DNA of 44,178 nt from Thalassobaculaceae bacterium (GTDB taxonomy: Bacteria > Pseudomonadota > Alphaproteobacteria > Thalassobaculales > Thalassobaculaceae): assembly GCA_029212785.1 (NCBI GenBank), contig JARGOG010000035.1:1-44178 (forward strand). Reading direction: 5' to 3'. The notes under the pieces are model-generated. The model was not told the DNA's origin. It worked only from the letters and a program-made list of their open reading frames with translations, and did not search any database. Positions 36,821 through 43,091 of the stretch are shown here, in pieces. Every line of letters begins with the position of its first letter. The stretch's first letter is position 1. The position numbers and the translations under genes are program-made.

Positions 36821-38002
36821 TCAATCCGCCGCTTCGGCGCCGAACGCGCGGGCGAGGTCGTTGGCGATGTCCGTGCGCTCCCAGGCGAAGCCGCCGTCCT
36901 GCTCCGCCGGCCGGCCGAAATGGCCGTAGGCGGAGGTCCGGGCGTAGATCGGCTTCAGCAGACCGAGCTGCTCGCGGATGCCCCGCGGTGTCAGGCGCAC
37001 CCGCTCACGCAGGACGCGGCCCAACCGGTCCTCGTCGACCCGGCCGGTACCCTGGGTGTCGACATAGACGGCGACCGGCTCCGGAACGCCGATGGCGTAG
37101 GCGAGCTGGATCACGCATTTGTCGGCCAGACCCGCGGCGACGACGTTCTTCGCCAGATAACGCGCGGCATAGGCGGCCGAGCGGTCGACCTTGGTCGGAT
37201 CCTTGCCGGAGAACGCGCCGCCACCATGCGGGGCCGCTCCGCCATAGGTGTCGACGATGATCTTGCGCCCGGTCAGGCCGGCATCGCCGTCCGGACCGCC
37301 GATCACGAAGCGCCCGGTCGGGTTCACCAGCAGGCGGTCGTCCGGCAGGTTCCAGCCTTCCGGCAGGGCCTGGGTTACGAACGGCTTCACGATCTCGCGG
37401 ACGGTGTCCTGGTCGATCGCCCCGTCGTGCTGGGTCGACACCACGACGGTGTCGATGCCCGCCGGCTTGCCGTTTTCGTAGCGCAGGGTGACCTGGCTCT
37501 TGCTGTCCGGGCCGAACCGGGGCTCCGTGCCGGACTTCCGGGCCTCGGCCATCAGCCGCAGGATGCGGTGGGCGAACTGGATCGGCGCCGGCATCAGCTC
37601 TTCGGTCTCGTTGCAGGCATAGCCGAACATGATGCCCTGATCGCCGGCACCCTCCTCGGCCTTGTTGCCGGCATCGACGCCGAGCGCGATGTCGGAGGAC
37701 TGGGCGTGCAGCCGGTTGATGATCTCGCAGGTCTTCCAGTGGAAGCCGTCCTGCTCGTAGCCGATGTCCTTGATCGCCGCCCGGGCGATCTCCTCGACCT
37801 GCTTCAGGACGGCGTCCGGGCCGCGCACCTCGCCGGCGATGGTCACGTGGTTGGTGGTCGCCAGGGTCTCGCAGGCGACGCGGGCGTCCTCGTCGGCGGC
37901 CAGGAAGGCGTCGAGCACGGCGTCGGAGATCCGGTCGCAGACCTTGTCCGGATGGCCTTCGGAAACGGATTCGCTGGTGAACAGCCAAGTTCTGTCAGTC
38001 AT
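36821..38002 (-). CDS. metK: S-adenosylmethionine synthetase
   Basis: A 393-residue MetK making SAM from methionine and ATP. Signatures: [21 protein letters not shown] at the N-terminus, [12 protein letters not shown] (the conserved hexapeptide region), and [30 protein letters not shown] 38002 matches family length; the longer frame to 38143 would overlap the methyltransferase gene. It is downstream of the betaine-forming methyltransferase with 91 bp between, which suggests that SAM supply is co-expressed with a heavy SAM consumer. No SAM riboswitch was recognised in the gap. Confidence 0.97.
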
Positions 38003-38038
38003 TGTCTGACGGTCCTCTCTTGCTTCTCGGGAAATGGC

Positions 38039-38075
38039 GCCGGGGCGGGCAGCAGCGTCGGCGCGCCGCCCCGGC
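38039..38075. terminator. GC-rich hairpin between methyltransferase and metK
   Basis: GCCGGGGCGG-N17-CCGCCCCGGC is a perfect 10-bp stem in the gap before metK. It lacks a T-run, so it may attenuate or protect the upstream message rather than terminate. Confidence 0.45.
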
Positions 38076-38093
38076 CTTGATGTGCTGGGCCGG

Positions 38094-39788
38094 TCAGTCC
38101 GGCTTGCGGAAGATCTGGATACCCCAGGCGAGGTGGCCGGCATCGGCGGCCTTCACCCAGTTCTCCAGCCCGACGATCATCTTATCGAGGTATTCGACCG
38201 ACGCGCCGCTGTCGCGCAGGGTGTCGTAGTTCCCGACGAGATCCTCGCGCACCCGGTCGTAATGCGTGCGCAACTGATTGGTCATATCGTTCTGGGCCAC
38301 GGTCTCGAAGCCGAGGGCGGTGGCGGCCTCGCGATAGAACCGCATGGAACCCAGCGAGGTCAGCTGGAGTCGGTCGTAGACCGGCTGCAGCACACCTTCC
38401 GGCACGTCGTCGGCCTGCATCGGGTCGGTGAAGATGAAGTGACCGCCCGGCTTGAGCACCCGGAACACCTCGGCCAGCACCTTGGCGCGCTGGTCGGAGT
38501 GCAGGATCGCGTCCTGGCTCCACACCACGTCGTAGCTGGCTTCCGGCTCGGGAATGTCCTCGAAGACGCCATGGATGACCTTGATCCGGTCGGCCAGCTT
38601 GGCCCGGCGGATCCGGCTCCGATTGGTATCGTTCTGGGTCTCGGAGATGTTGAGGCAGGTTGCCGAATTGCCGAAGCGATTGGCAATCCGCCGCATGGCC
38701 CCGCCGTAACCGGCGCCGATATCGAGGATGCGGGTGTTCTGATCGAGGGCCGGCAGGGAGTCCGCCATCCGATCGACCGTGGCGTCGCTCGCCTCGCGGA
38801 TTACCTTGGTGTCGTCGTATATGCCGACATGCAGGTCCTCGCCGCCCCAGACCATGCTGTAGAACGTGTCCGCGTCATCGCTATCGTAATAGTCTTCGGC
38901 GATATCGCGGACGTCGGCTTCACCGTCCGCGCGGGTCCCGCCGCTCCAGCGAACGACGTGCTGGGTCGACTTCTCGGCCACGTGGATGAAGAAGTCCGGG
39001 TCGTTCTCGGCGTAGGTTTCCTGGAAGTCGCCATAGGTCCGCACCCGCTGGAAACCGGCTTCCGACAGCAGCCGGCGCACGTAGTTCTTGCGGATCGGGC
39101 ACATGTTGAGCGTGTACTGGGACCCGTCCGGAAAGCTGTATTTGAAGCGCGCGAGCCCTTCATCGATGTGATCCGGCTCGGCCGTGACCTTGTCGCCGGC
39201 GTAGTAGTACTTGTGCTTCGTGGTGAAGCCGTGGTCGAGCATGCTGTCGTAGTTGCGCTGGTCGAGGATCAGCATTCCGTCATGTTTCAGCGCGGCGTAG
39301 AACTCGGCAAGCGCGCGGCGCCGGTCGGCTTCGGCGTGCAGGTGGGTGAATGAGTTTCCGAGGCAGATGATCGCGTCGTACTTGCCCTGGATGTCCCGAT
39401 TCAACCAGCGCCAGTCGGCCTGCACGGTTTTCAGGATCAGGCCGCGTGACTGGGCGTTCTGGAACGCCTTTGCCAGCATCGCCGCCGACCCGTCGGCCGA
39501 GGTCACGTTGAAGCCGGACTCCTGAAGACGCACCGAATGGAATCCTGTGCCGCAGGCGACATCCAGGACCGTCTCCTTCCCGCGGGCCCGCAGGACGTCC
39601 ATGAAGAACTGACCTTCGCTCTCCGCCCGGGCGGTCCAGTCGATCAACTCGTCCCACTTCTCCACGAAGGACATGATGTATTCGCCGCGATAGAGATCGG
39701 TGTCGCGGCTTTCGAGCGGGTCCTCGCCATATGCCTGCTCGTCGAGCTCAAGCTCTGTGTTGGCGGTCTGTCGAGCGGATTGCCCCAT
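38094..39788 (-). CDS. Fused glycine/sarcosine and sarcosine/dimethylglycine N-methyltransferase
   Basis: A 564-residue protein carrying two SAM methyltransferase domains. Domain 1 (about 25-275) has motif [15 protein letters not shown] (75-88), then [39 protein letters not shown] and [13 protein letters not shown], closely like glycine sarcosine N-methyltransferase. Domain 2 (about 297-564) begins [25 protein letters not shown], has [14 protein letters not shown] (354-367) and WSQDAILHS, as in sarcosine/dimethylglycine methyltransferase. Together they convert glycine to glycine betaine using three SAM. Most known systems use two separate proteins; fused forms are known (Actinopolyspora). It starts at ATG 39788 with GGAGG five bases upstream. 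Confidence 0.93.
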
Positions 39789-39913
39789 GGTGGCCTCCAG
39801 TGGGTTGTGGCGACCGCGCCTCCCAGGCGAAGTACGGGGGAGCCGATGGCGCCCGTCAGGGCACAGTCGCGGGATCCGGCCACCCAGATCGGATGGCAGA
39901 GCGAGTCCTTGAT

Positions 39914-39930
39914 CCGATCGCGGCGATCGG
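39914..39930. promoter_or_regulatory. 17-bp perfect inverted repeat upstream of the methyltransferase
   Basis: CCGATCGC-G-GCGATCGG lies 126 bp before the methyltransferase start. It is the most symmetric site in this leader and a candidate operator or hairpin. No regulator gene is adjacent. Confidence 0.4.
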
Positions 39931-40366
39931 GTGCGATGACTCCTGGCCACTCACGTTCCGGCCGCGATGGTGTCGGTGACTTGTCGGCGCTTGGCTTTCC
40001 GCACTCTTGATCTTGGCGTGGCCGCGTTCGTTTCGCCGGCCCGCTACAACCGTCCCGCAACCTCAAGCTTCCTTCCGTTAGGACAGCTCCGAGGTGCAGG
40101 TTGGTTGCGGCTTGTTTAATATTCTATTTGCGACATAACAAGCCTGAATACGACAAAATGCGATTTGACAGCCGCTAGGTCGTTGTTCGGGCTCGATAAT
40201 CGACGTCAGAAAATACCCGACATTGTCGATGGTTAAGGACGTTTCGGCGGCGGCGCTTCCCGAAGGGCGACGCGTGGCGGAGCCGTTCCGCAGCGCGGTC
40301 GAACGATTGCGCCTGATCCGGCATCGGCCGGGTCCGCGGGATGCGCCGCGTCGCACCATCTATCTC
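39931..40366. other. Intergenic region without a convincing gene
   Basis: This is most of the 695-bp gap between the divergent methyltransferase and exbB genes. An AT-rich patch (40080-40240) stands out from the GC-rich surroundings and contains an inverted repeat, GCTTGTT-N20-AACAAGC (40110-40143). Frames here have no codon or protein character I trust. The long leader of the methyltransferase could hold an osmotic or metabolite-responsive element, but no known riboswitch motif was seen. Confidence 0.5.
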
Positions 40367-40433: not shown

Positions 40434-40490
40434 ATGCGCAGGGCCGATTGCGCGATCAGATACGGGCATAGCGGTGGGCCGACATGCTGA
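40434..40490 (+). CDS. Possible 18-residue leader ORF overlapping exbB
   Basis: ATG 40434 follows GAGGGAG with ideal seven-base spacing and runs 18 codons (MRRADCAIRYGHSGGPTC) to TGA 40488-40490, four bases past the exbB ATG. exbB's own Shine-Dalgarno (GGTGGG) is weaker, so ribosomes finishing this ORF may re-start at exbB. No known family. Confidence 0.4.
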   Translation: MRRADCAIRYGHSGGPTC

Positions 40491-41212
40491 CGTCGGAAGA
40501 CTTCGCGGGCCCGACTGAAATGCTCGCCGCCGGAGGACCGGTGGTTGCGGTGCTGATCGTCATGTCCGTGATCGCACTGGCGATCGTGCTGGTCAAGCTG
40601 TGGCAGTTCCGCGCCGCCCGCCTGGGCGAGCGTAACCGGGTTCAGACCGCTCTGGCGTTGATCCGTGCCGGCCGCCCGCATGATGCGCTGGCCGCGGTGC
40701 GCCGCTCCCGCAACCCGGTGGCGCAAGCCGTCGCACGCGCCATCCTGGGCGGCCAGCGCGGCTTGCCGGAGCACAAGGTCCGCGAGGAGGCGATCCGTTA
40801 CGGCAGCGACGCGCTGGAGGAATTGCGGGGCTATCTGCGGCCGCTTGAAGTGATCGCGTCCCTGGCGCCGCTGCTTGGCTTGTTCGGCACCGTGCTCGGG
40901 ATGATCGGCGCGTTCCAGCAGCTTGAGGCGGCGGGCAATCAGGTCAATCCGGCCGTGCTCTCCGGCGGTATCTGGGAAGCGTTGCTGACCACGGCGGTCG
41001 GCCTCGCGGTTGCGATCCCGGCGGTGGCGGCGCTGAACTGGCTGGAGCGCGTGGTCGAGCGGGTCGCCCACGACATGGACAGCGCCATCACCGGCGTCTT
41101 CACACTGGATCTCTCGACTGCAGTCGGGGAAAGCGACGGCCATGGCTATGAGCGCGGATACGAACACGGACCCGGACAGGGCCGCCTGCGCACCGCCGCG
41201 GCTGGCGAGTAG
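40484..41212 (+). CDS. exbB: ExbB/TolQ-type proton channel protein
   Basis: A 242-residue MotA/TolQ/ExbB inner-membrane protein with three membrane segments: about 18-38, then LRPLEVIASLAPLLGLFGTVLGMIGAF, and EALLTTAVGLAVAIPAVAAL. The Thr of GTVLGM and the Glu/Thr of the last helix are the conserved channel residues. With ExbD it converts proton flow into TonB movement. The C-terminal tail overlaps exbD by 71 bp in another frame. First main gene of the exbB-exbD-exbD-tonB operon. Confidence 0.93.
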   Translation: MLTSEDFAGPTEMLAAGGPVVAVLIVMSVIALAIVLVKLWQFRAARLGERNRVQTALALIRAGRPHDALAAVRRSRNPVAQAVARAILGGQRGLPEHKVREEAIRYGSDALEELRGYLRPLEVIASLAPLLGLFGTVLGMIGAFQQLEAAGNQVNPAVLSGGIWEALLTTAVGLAVAIPAVAALNWLERVVERVAHDMDSAITGVFTLDLSTAVGESDGHGYERGYEHGPGQGRLRTAAAGE

Positions 41213-41597
41213 GGGACGCCGTCCCCGGTCGGTCATCAGCCTCACGCCGCTGATCGACGTGGTGTTCATTCTCCTGGTGTTCTTCATGCTGGCGTCGAGT
41301 TTCCTCGACTGGCGCTCGATCGACCTCGCCCCGCCGGCCTCGGCCGGTGCCGGCGCATCGATGACCGGCGCCATGCTGCTGGAGATCCGGCCCGATGGGC
41401 TGCGACTCAGCGGCCACATGGTCACCGCGACCGAGGCGCAGGAGAAAATCATGGCCCAGGTCCGCGAGAAGCCGGACCAGCGGGTGCTGATCAAGCCGGC
41501 GGACGGTGTCGCTCTGCAGGACACGGTGGACATTCTCGATCGGCTGTCGGCCGCCGGGGTCGCCAACCTGTCCTTCGTGCGCGCGGGCGCACGCTAG
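41142..41597 (+). CDS. exbD: ExbD/TolR-type protein 1 (canonical Asp)
   Basis: A 151-residue single-membrane-segment protein. The segment SLTPLIDVVFILLVFFMLAS carries the essential proton-carrying Asp (D39) in the expected TPLIDVxF context. A periplasmic domain follows (ending SAAGVANLSFVRAG). It starts 71 bp inside exbB; GGGGAAAG is nine bases upstream of ATG 41142. It partners ExbB as the functional ion-channel subunit. Confidence 0.92.
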   Translation: MAMSADTNTDPDRAACAPPRLASRGRRPRSVISLTPLIDVVFILLVFFMLASSFLDWRSIDLAPPASAGAGASMTGAMLLEIRPDGLRLSGHMVTATEAQEKIMAQVREKPDQRVLIKPADGVALQDTVDILDRLSAAGVANLSFVRAGAR

Positions 41598-41607
41598 GAG
41601 CGGCCCC

Positions 41608-42015
41608 ATGCGTCTTGCCCGAAAGCGTCCGCGCAACGAGGACGACCGCATCCTGCCGCTGATCAACGTGGTCTTCCTGCTGCTGATCTTCTTCATGCTG
41701 GCGGGGCGGTTGGCTGCGACCGATCCGTTTCGGATCGATCCGCCGCAATCGGTCAGCGCGGGGCCGGTCACCATCGAGGATCTGCTGGTCCAGGTCGGTG
41801 CCGAGGGACGCCTCGCCTTGAACGGCGAGGAGATGGGCGAGATGGCGCTGGTGGCGGCCGTCTCCGCGCGCGTCGGGGAGGGCACGCCGGGGACGGTTCG
41901 CCTTAAGGCCGATGGTCGTGTCGAGGCGACGCGGGTCGTCGCCATCATGGAACTGCTGCGCGAGGCCGGGATCGACAAGCTGCAACTGCTGACCCTACCG
42001 GCGAGGGACGGGTGA
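41608..42015 (+). CDS. ExbD/TolR-type protein 2 with Asn replacing the channel Asp
   Basis: A 135-residue second ExbD. Its membrane segment ILPLINVVFLLLIFFMLAG aligns with the ExbD helix, but the key Asp is Asn (N20, codon AAC 41665-41667). Such a subunit should be unable to carry protons itself. The periplasmic domain resembles ExbD (RIDPPQSVSAGPVTIEDLLVQVGAEGRLALNGEEM). It begins 10 bp after exbD and its TGA overlaps the tonB ATG (TGATG), so it is made together with the other subunits. A structural or asymmetric partner role is inferred. Confidence 0.9.
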   Translation: MRLARKRPRNEDDRILPLINVVFLLLIFFMLAGRLAATDPFRIDPPQSVSAGPVTIEDLLVQVGAEGRLALNGEEMGEMALVAAVSARVGEGTPGTVRLKADGRVEATRVVAIMELLREAGIDKLQLLTLPARDG

Positions 42016-43091
42016 TGCGGATCCGCCGGCGGCACATGGGACTGGCGATCGGCGCCGCGGTGGCGATCCACGTCGCCGCCGCCGTCGCCATGATCCTCGA
42101 GCCTGAGGACAAGGGCGCCGCGAGCACCGGCACCGGCGGCATCCAGGTGTCGCTGGGCCCGTCCGGCGGCGCGCCAGGCAGTAGCGCGGATGTGGTCACC
42201 GACATGGAGCAGGCGGAGCCGGTCGACCCGACCGCCGCCCCGGTCGCGGAAACCGAGGACACACGTCCCGAGAAGGCCGAGCTCGAGGAGACGCCGCCGG
42301 ATGCGGAGGTCGCCGAGACCGTCCCGGAAAAACCGACGGACCAGCCGCCGCCGGAACCGGTGCAGGTCGAGGCCGCGATCGACCAGGCCGAGACCATGGA
42401 GAAGGTCGACGAGGTCGTCGAGGTGGCGAAGCCGGAAGCCGTCGAGGCGCCGCCGCCGCCCGAACCGGTCAAGGTCGAGCTGGCCAAGGTCGAGCCGGCC
42501 AAGGTCGAGCCGGCCGAGGTCAGGCCGGAGCCGGTGATCGTCGCACGGGTCGCGCCCGAAGTCGTGCCGGTGGAGGCGCCCCCTCTGCCGGTCGCGCGTC
42601 CGCGCCCGCCGGTGCCCGAGAAGCTGGAGATCGCGCCGAAGCCGCTGCCGCAGCAGACCGCCGCCCTTGCCGTCGAGGCACCGACGGCGGAGACGGCACA
42701 GCCCGCTCCGGCCCAGACCAGCGGTGCGGCCGGTCGCAGCGGTGTCGGCCAATCCGCCCAGTCGGGCAGTGCGGAGTCCAGCAGCGGCGGCGGCAGGCCG
42801 GGTGTGTCGGTCGATTACGTCTCGATCCTCCAGGCCTGGCTCGAGGAGCACAAGGAATACCCCCGCCGCGCCCGCAGCCGGCGCCAGGAGGGGGTGGTCT
42901 GGCTGTACTTCGTGATGGACCGCAATGGCCATGTGTTGGAGCACCGCATCGACCGCAGTTCCGGTCACACTCTGCTCGACCGCGAGGTGGAGGAGATGAT
43001 CGAGCGGGCCCAGCCGCTGCCGGCGATGCCCGCGACCATGACCCAGATGCGCCTGGAGCTGGTCGTACCGGTGCAGTTCCAACTGCGCTGA
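42015..43091 (+). CDS. tonB: Energy transducer TonB
   Basis: A 358-residue TonB. It has a basic N-terminus and one membrane anchor (about 8-27), a long Pro/Glu/Val/Lys-rich periplasm-spanning stretch (about 60-230) with KVE/PAKVEPAEV repeats, then a Ser/Gly linker. The C-terminal TonB domain (about 268-358) includes SILQAWLEEHKEYPRRARSRRQEGVVWLYFVMDRNGHVLEHRI and MRLELVVPVQFQLR. It transmits energy to outer-membrane receptors. ATG 42015 overlaps the exbD2 stop; a GTG at 42012 is a less likely start. No TonB-dependent receptor is in the window. Confidence 0.93.
   Translation: MRIRRRHMGLAIGAAVAIHVAAAVAMILEPEDKGAASTGTGGIQVSLGPSGGAPGSSADVVTDMEQAEPVDPTAAPVAETEDTRPEKAELEETPPDAEVAETVPEKPTDQPPPEPVQVEAAIDQAETMEKVDEVVEVAKPEAVEAPPPPEPVKVELAKVEPAKVEPAEVRPEPVIVARVAPEVVPVEAPPLPVARPRPPVPEKLEIAPKPLPQQTAALAVEAPTAETAQPAPAQTSGAAGRSGVGQSAQSGSAESSSGGGRPGVSVDYVSILQAWLEEHKEYPRRARSRRQEGVVWLYFVMDRNGHVLEHRIDRSSGHTLLDREVEEMIERAQPLPAMPATMTQMRLELVVPVQFQLR

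Follow-up and report, generated by a model that had tools for sequence, protein, structure and literature searches.

Tandem ExbD Genes Pairing Asp with Asn: A Candidate Single-Proton-Site Ton Motor

The window analyzed here, a stretch of 44,178 nucleotides from a Thalassobaculaceae bacterium, contains a compact Ton operon with two adjacent ExbD genes, the first of which retains the Asp that binds protons in this family, while the second encodes Asn at the equivalent position. Such Asp/Asn (D/N) pairs are a widespread and apparently old subfamily and not a feature of one operon, and the explanation that we favor, with a probability of roughly two in three, is an ExbB–ExbD1–ExbD2 motor with one proton site, in which the Asn of ExbD2 would mimic a permanently protonated Asp. 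An asymmetric motor of this type, with one path for protons, had already been suggested by the first-pass annotation and is our best explanation, in which hetero-assembly, rotation and stoichiometry are proposed features.

All four genes of the operon lie on the plus strand, and were assigned from open reading frames and Pfam matches, together with alignments for ExbB and both ExbD proteins and a structural model for ExbD2. The first gene (40484–41212) encodes an ExbB-type pentamer subunit of 242 amino acids, with T136 and T170 at the positions of E. coli T148 and T181, and with an extra Thr, T169. It is followed by ExbD1 (41142–41597, 151 amino acids), with basic residues ahead of a helix, SLTPLIDVVFILLVFFM, that carries Asp39 in the motif SLTPLIDVVF, and by ExbD2 (41608–42015, 135 amino acids), with acidic residues ahead of a helix, RILPLINVVFLLLIFFM, that carries Asn20 (codon AAC, 41665–41667) in the motif ILPLINVVF. 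The last gene (42012–43091) encodes TonB, with an N-terminal hydrophobic stretch that includes a His and a C-terminal TonB_C domain (Pfam, 42849–43085), and starts either at ATG 42015 or at the alternative GTG 42012. D25 of E. coli ExbD aligns onto both D39 of ExbD1 and N20 of ExbD2, and the first-pass description of a TPLIDV helix with D39, followed by an LPLINV helix with an AAC-encoded Asn, is borne out by sequence, Pfam and this alignment. The same holds, from the window coordinates, for the described 71 bp overlap of the ExbB and ExbD1 frames, the 10 bp between ExbD1 and ExbD2, and the TGATG junction shared by the ExbD2 stop and the TonB ATG. Elsewhere in the window, on the minus strand at 36821–39950, an S-adenosylmethionine synthetase-like gene adjoins a gene resembling two joined methyltransferases, which we take to resemble glycine/sarcosine methyltransferase and which possibly belongs to a betaine pathway.

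Both ExbD proteins match PF02472 (ExbD/TolR; 81.2 bits for ExbD2 and 69.6 bits for ExbD1, with a cut-off of 25.4), and the first gene matches PF01618 (MotA_ExbB; 102 bits, cut-off 22.9). Against the NCBIfam ExbD/TolR equivalogs TIGR02803, TIGR02804 and TIGR02801, ExbD1 and ExbD2 score far under the cut-offs (best 51.1 vs 127.3 bits), and their nearest solved chains by sequence are ExbD and TolR entries. AlphaFold models of the single chains, each from an input alignment of 52 rows, place one N-terminal helix and the ExbD periplasmic fold in both proteins, with the helix at residues 34–58 of ExbD1 (mean pLDDT 76.7, pTM 0.50) and at residues 15–36, including N20, of ExbD2 (mean pLDDT 73.1, pTM 0.51; residues 1–10 and 41–53 under 50). 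Six PDB structures match each model at E ≤ 0.001, all of them ExbD or TolR periplasmic domains, with a best value of 2.5e-6 for ExbD2. ExbD2 is an ExbD member by descent and fold that lacks the functional hallmark of the family, the proton-binding Asp, which in the alignment is present in ExbD1 (D39) and absent from ExbD2 (N20). From homology, we infer a 5:2 architecture for the motor of this operon, in which a pentamer would surround a dimer and the assembly would rotate.

A search of 36 same-family genomes with ExbD2 gave some ExbD match in 28, and a motif scan of the returned loci gave a tandem pair in 14 family genomes, including that of the window, with Asp first and Asn second in all 14. 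Plasmids of Leisingera, Phaeobacter and Acuticoccus carry the same Asp-then-Asn pair, which in Leisingera and Phaeobacter, but not in Acuticoccus, adjoins genes for iron-type ABC transporters and TonB-dependent receptors. A scan of one genome per species with two peptide patterns, one containing the Asn and one without it, gave 358 relatives; the best 80 of these, which were kept, come from Alphaproteobacteria (e.g., Thalassobaculum, Tistlia, Roseospira and Rhodospira) and Gammaproteobacteria (Nitrococcus, Thioalkalivibrio, Salinisphaera and Aquisalimonas). A D/N pair is also present in the genome of the type strain of Thalassobaculum litoreum (L042). The Asn subunit directly follows the Asp subunit in 79 of these 80 loci, the first subunit of the 80th being only partly recovered. 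We note that because one pattern held the Asn, this set is biased toward Asn; four loci (L100, L104, L107 and L113) read LPLTN, which lies outside the Asn-containing pattern, and yet have the Asn.

A profile built solely from ExbD1 rows of D/N operons, free of any second-subunit sequence, was used to search 289 alphaproteobacterial genomes, and 70 of the listed loci were read (the 30 best, plus 40 picked from the next ranks and then mostly from adjacent double matches, with some singles). These comprise 45 D/N pairs, one pair with Asn second and an incomplete first subunit, 10 D/D pairs and 14 single Asp-type proteins; both copies of nine of the 10 D/D pairs carry TPMLD[IV][IV]FI[ML]LIFFIVT, the tenth being the locus L144 discussed below. 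A profile of the Asn subunit over 398 Pseudomonadota genomes gave, among its 30 best loci (some of them already in the other sets), 15 D/N pairs, 14 single Asp-type proteins and one D/D pair, again from the genome of L144. Pooled by distinct second-subunit sequence, and leaving out six overlapping context loci of the window's genome (L202–L207), these searches amount to 147 tandem pairs, with 135 D/N, two with Asn second and an incomplete first subunit, 10 D/D, and none in N-then-D order, while all 45 distinct ExbD/TolR proteins that lack a neighboring second copy carry Asp. Scored at the column of Asp25, the collected homologues thus extend the Asn reported for the second ExbD of the window to 137 of the 138 second subunits assigned to this type (135 D/N and the two with incomplete partners, vs L144 with Asp), on the assumption that every Asn subunit falls in the clade defined by the 28 representatives.

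Neither a sequencing error nor a local mutation can account for the 135 distinct D/N pairs, and misalignment is ruled out by a 174-row alignment in which the diagnostic column holds D (106) and N (68) only. Three genomes have two separate D/N pairs each (G365, L135/L148; G243, L139/L147; G348, L132/L157), and a Rhodovibrionaceae MAG (L046) has a third, Asp-type ExbD at 2226–2609, ∼1 kb upstream of its D/N pair.

The Asn codon is AAC in 88 and AAT in 41 of 129 Asn subunits, and as both are used, silent changes do happen while the residue is kept. Helix columns 18–36 of these subunits contain no Asp, Glu, His, Lys or Arg (129 of 129), which rules out a shift of the Asp by one turn, the finding that would have overturned the earlier claim of a missing carboxylate in ExbD2; in the Asp subunits, the Asp is the sole charged or His residue of the same columns (126 sequences). 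No residue other than Asn or Asp occurs at the site among the collected second subunits, a restriction that points to a function of the Asn side chain rather than to simple loss of the Asp. The mean frequency of the most common residue is 0.93 in the helix of the Asp subunit and 0.87 in that of the Asn subunit, compared to 0.46 in each of the periplasmic domains (135 pairs, preselected as D/N, such that the diagnostic column is invariant by design and carries no weight as evidence). Both helices are therefore far more conserved than the periplasmic domains, as expected if both sit in the ExbB pore. In columns 10–17, ahead of the helix, the mean net charge is +2.7 in ExbD1 and −0.1 in ExbD2 (126 pairs, distinct by both subunits), compared to −2.3 and −2.8 in the two subunits of D/D pairs; a basic ExbD1 next to a less basic or acidic ExbD2 would favor unlike pairing, which we take as suggestive only.

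To follow the descent of the Asn subunit, a maximum-likelihood tree was built from 94 sequences (28 D/N pairs, 10 D/D pairs and 18 lone proteins) with the diagnostic column removed; its 132 columns leave many inner forks weak and five D1 rows without a resolved place. All 28 representative Asn subunits, together with the second subunit of L144, lie on one side of a branch with support of 95/84, and 18 of the 20 D/D subunits form a separate group with three lone proteins (100/99), such that nine D/D pairs are a clade apart from the D/N pairs. The Asp/Asn state requires two changes on this tree. L144 lies inside the Asn group, with one Asn row, L138, branching outside it (99/90), and the most parsimonious readings are therefore either one origin of the Asn with a return to Asp in the L144 lineage, which seems likelier, or two origins. 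L144 (also L208; G098:C6:62009-62849) is an operon of the order ExbB-ExbD-ExbD with a TonB-like gene after it, and its second ExbD, although placed in the Asn clade, carries Asp (LIPLIDVSMFLLIFFM) and has basic and not acidic residues ahead of the helix. Judging from its sequence, this locus would be a natural Asp/Asp version of the D/N motor, and the Asp in both of its subunits means that the Asn is not required everywhere.

As would be expected if ExbD2 associates with this ExbB, an ExbB gene lies directly upstream in 124 of the 126 distinct D/N pairs, and all 124 of these ExbB proteins have Thr at the equivalents of E. coli T148 and T181. At the position of T169 in the window (E. coli A180, next to T181), Thr is found in 123 of the 124, whereas all 23 TolQ-type proteins have Ala and nine of 10 D/D operons have Pro; five residues before it, the W164 column holds Trp in 123 of 124 and not in the TolQ set, and the two residues are hallmarks of the ExbB that accompanies D/N pairs. 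Only 76 of the 124 ExbB proteins retain the Glu that corresponds to E176. A TonB_C gene follows directly downstream in 98 of the 119 D/N pairs with 1000 bases to scan, and was not detected there in the other 21. In four Kiloniellaceae-type loci (L060, L063, L068 and L076), the gene after the D/N pair codes for a small, lipoprotein-like product, and no TonB was detected there.

The genome of the window (completeness 100, contamination 1.21) encodes three PF02472 proteins, namely ExbD1, ExbD2 and a TolR on contig C137, where TolQ, TolB and Pal exceed the NCBIfam cut-offs, TolR falls just below (122.9 vs 127.3 bits), and a TolA-like gene is located in between. The PF01618 gene of C137 is ruled out as a second Ton motor by being the TolQ of this Tol-Pal cluster, and those of C49 and C63 are rejected on account of neighboring genes that we take to be flagellar and MotB-like. 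A further MotA/ExbB-family protein (L207, G000:C114:32195-32452) has no PF02472 protein to go with it, and a small single-helix protein is encoded in the same region. The genome has two TonB_C proteins, the second of which, on C107, adjoins an ABC-transporter ATPase, and nine TonB-dependent receptor plug domains, and thus the components of a Ton system are in place, with TonB in the operon itself and the receptors elsewhere in the genome. These nine receptors must depend on the D/N motor for energy if TolQR does not substitute for it, and the motor is probably the main Ton energizer of the organism.

In the motor that we favor, the ExbB pentamer would surround a heterodimer of ExbD1, with its Asp, and ExbD2, with its Asn. 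The Asp of ExbD1 alone would bind and release protons while passing the ring of ExbB Thr residues, and the Asn of ExbD2 would resemble a protonated Asp in shape and hydrogen bonding without ever being charged. With one Asp per shaft, the motor would visit the charged/neutral and neutral/neutral states only, never reaching the doubly charged state, and, if it rotates, would use 5 protons per turn and not 10. In the usual 5:2 model, the two identical Asp residues of the dimer alternate. A review of these motors (PMC9389320) gives 10 ions per turn for a 5:2 motor, terms the D22N variant of C. jejuni MotB protonation-mimetic, and states as not known whether the intermediate of the cycle is doubly protonated or doubly charged. 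The E. coli ExbD D25N variant is described as inactive (PMC11658791), and for this reason the sufficiency of one Asp needs proof, although a single gene supplies both ExbD copies in E. coli, such that the change is present in both. The fuller form of this reading, in which an old and widespread Ton lineage would have a single-carboxylate ExbB5–ExbD1–ExbD2 rotary motor with 5 protons per turn and only a doubly neutral intermediate, is tentative, and we would put it at somewhat below even odds.

A rather unlikely alternative, which overlaps with our best explanation as far as assembly is concerned, is that the heterodimer forms but never completes a turn, the shaft instead being swung or switched between two states by protonation of its one Asp and thereby pulling or releasing TonB. 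One titratable site does correspond to two charge states, and a turn with 5 ions would, according to the review of 5:2 motors, demand an entirely new model (PMC9389320), but all 124 ExbB proteins retain the pore Thr residues found in rotary relatives, which weighs against a motor that has given up rotation. We give a smaller chance to ExbD1 D/D homodimers being the working motor, with ExbD2 as an accessory in idle N/D or N/N complexes that would switch the motor off, reduce proton leak or serve assembly. Such an arrangement would be in line with the inactivity of E. coli D25N (PMC11658791), and the ExbD stoichiometry here is one that we infer; however, a D-type subunit lies directly upstream of the N-type in 79 of 80, 45 of 46 and 15 of 15 loci (the exceptions having an incomplete first subunit), and the ExbD2 helix shows the strong conservation that a helix within the pore should have.

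That the carboxylate is supplied by another protein, e.g., by an acidic residue of ExbB or TonB, is improbable. Several well-conserved acidic ExbB positions in D/N operons are indeed without counterpart in the TolQ set, such as the column of E148 in the window's ExbB (Glu in 98 of 124, vs Ala or Ser in 23 of 23 TolQ proteins). However, what has changed beside the pore Thr is the gain of another Thr (T169) and not of an acid, and the acidic positions, going by the E. coli helix limits, presumably do not fall in the central part of the second or third helix. Finally, decay of a redundant second ExbD on its way to being lost, which a copy without the essential Asp may well resemble in isolation, is rejected as scarcely credible, with Asn in 137 of 138 second subunits, Asp in the other and no further residue seen, AAC and AAT both in use, and one clade that spans Alpha- and Gammaproteobacteria.

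If the single-proton-site motor is correct, a motor of this class can do without a pair of alternating Asp residues, and the proton-to-turn ratio of the class can be changed. Nature seems to have made a "half-wired" motor suited to testing proton use: as a natural Asp/Asn motor could not reach the doubly charged state, it would make open questions of mechanism directly testable, and the heterodimer would have two sides distinguishable in structural work.

The operon resembles the E. coli ExbB-ExbD-TonB system (PDB 6tyi and others) in the ExbD family and periplasmic fold, the Thr pair of ExbB, the TonB partner, and the equivalence of D39 to D25. It differs from it in that one ExbD accompanies ExbB in E. 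coli, whereas the operon here encodes an additional ExbD, which has Asn. Sphingobium SYK-6 also has a Ton operon (tonB1-exbB1-exbD1-exbD2) in which a single exbB is followed by a tandem of exbD genes, and we assume that this pair belongs to the clade of nine D/D pairs; Asp25 is described as conserved in both SYK-6 proteins (PMC8599685), unlike in the second ExbD here. Similarly, Myxococcus combines one TolQ/ExbB with two ExbD/TolR homologues in AglR-AglQ-AglS and in the Oar Ton system (exbB1-exbD1-exbD2). Deletion of either exbD of the latter leads to a similar developmental defect (PMC6434023), the likeness to Oar being one of gene set. AglQ and AglS are both described as carrying the conserved Asp, in contrast to the Asn of ExbD2, and their heterodimer formation is described as unknown (PMC9389320). 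Paired vWA proteins with a TolR-like helix have been proposed to act as heterologous pairs in one TolQ-like pentamer, but these are said to keep the Asp in each monomer (PMC12204202) and are without the ExbD fold. Among the titles and abstract openings listed by searches of an open-access library, none concerned an Asn-type ExbD or a D/N motor. V-type ATPase rotor rings include subunits without the carboxylate, and there, too, duplication was followed by loss of an ion-binding carboxylate, altering the number of ions per turn, although fold and machine are unrelated and the likeness is an analogy only. We rate as known tandem ExbD proteins that keep the Asp in both copies, and as new an ExbB/ExbD-family motor in which one ExbD lacks it.
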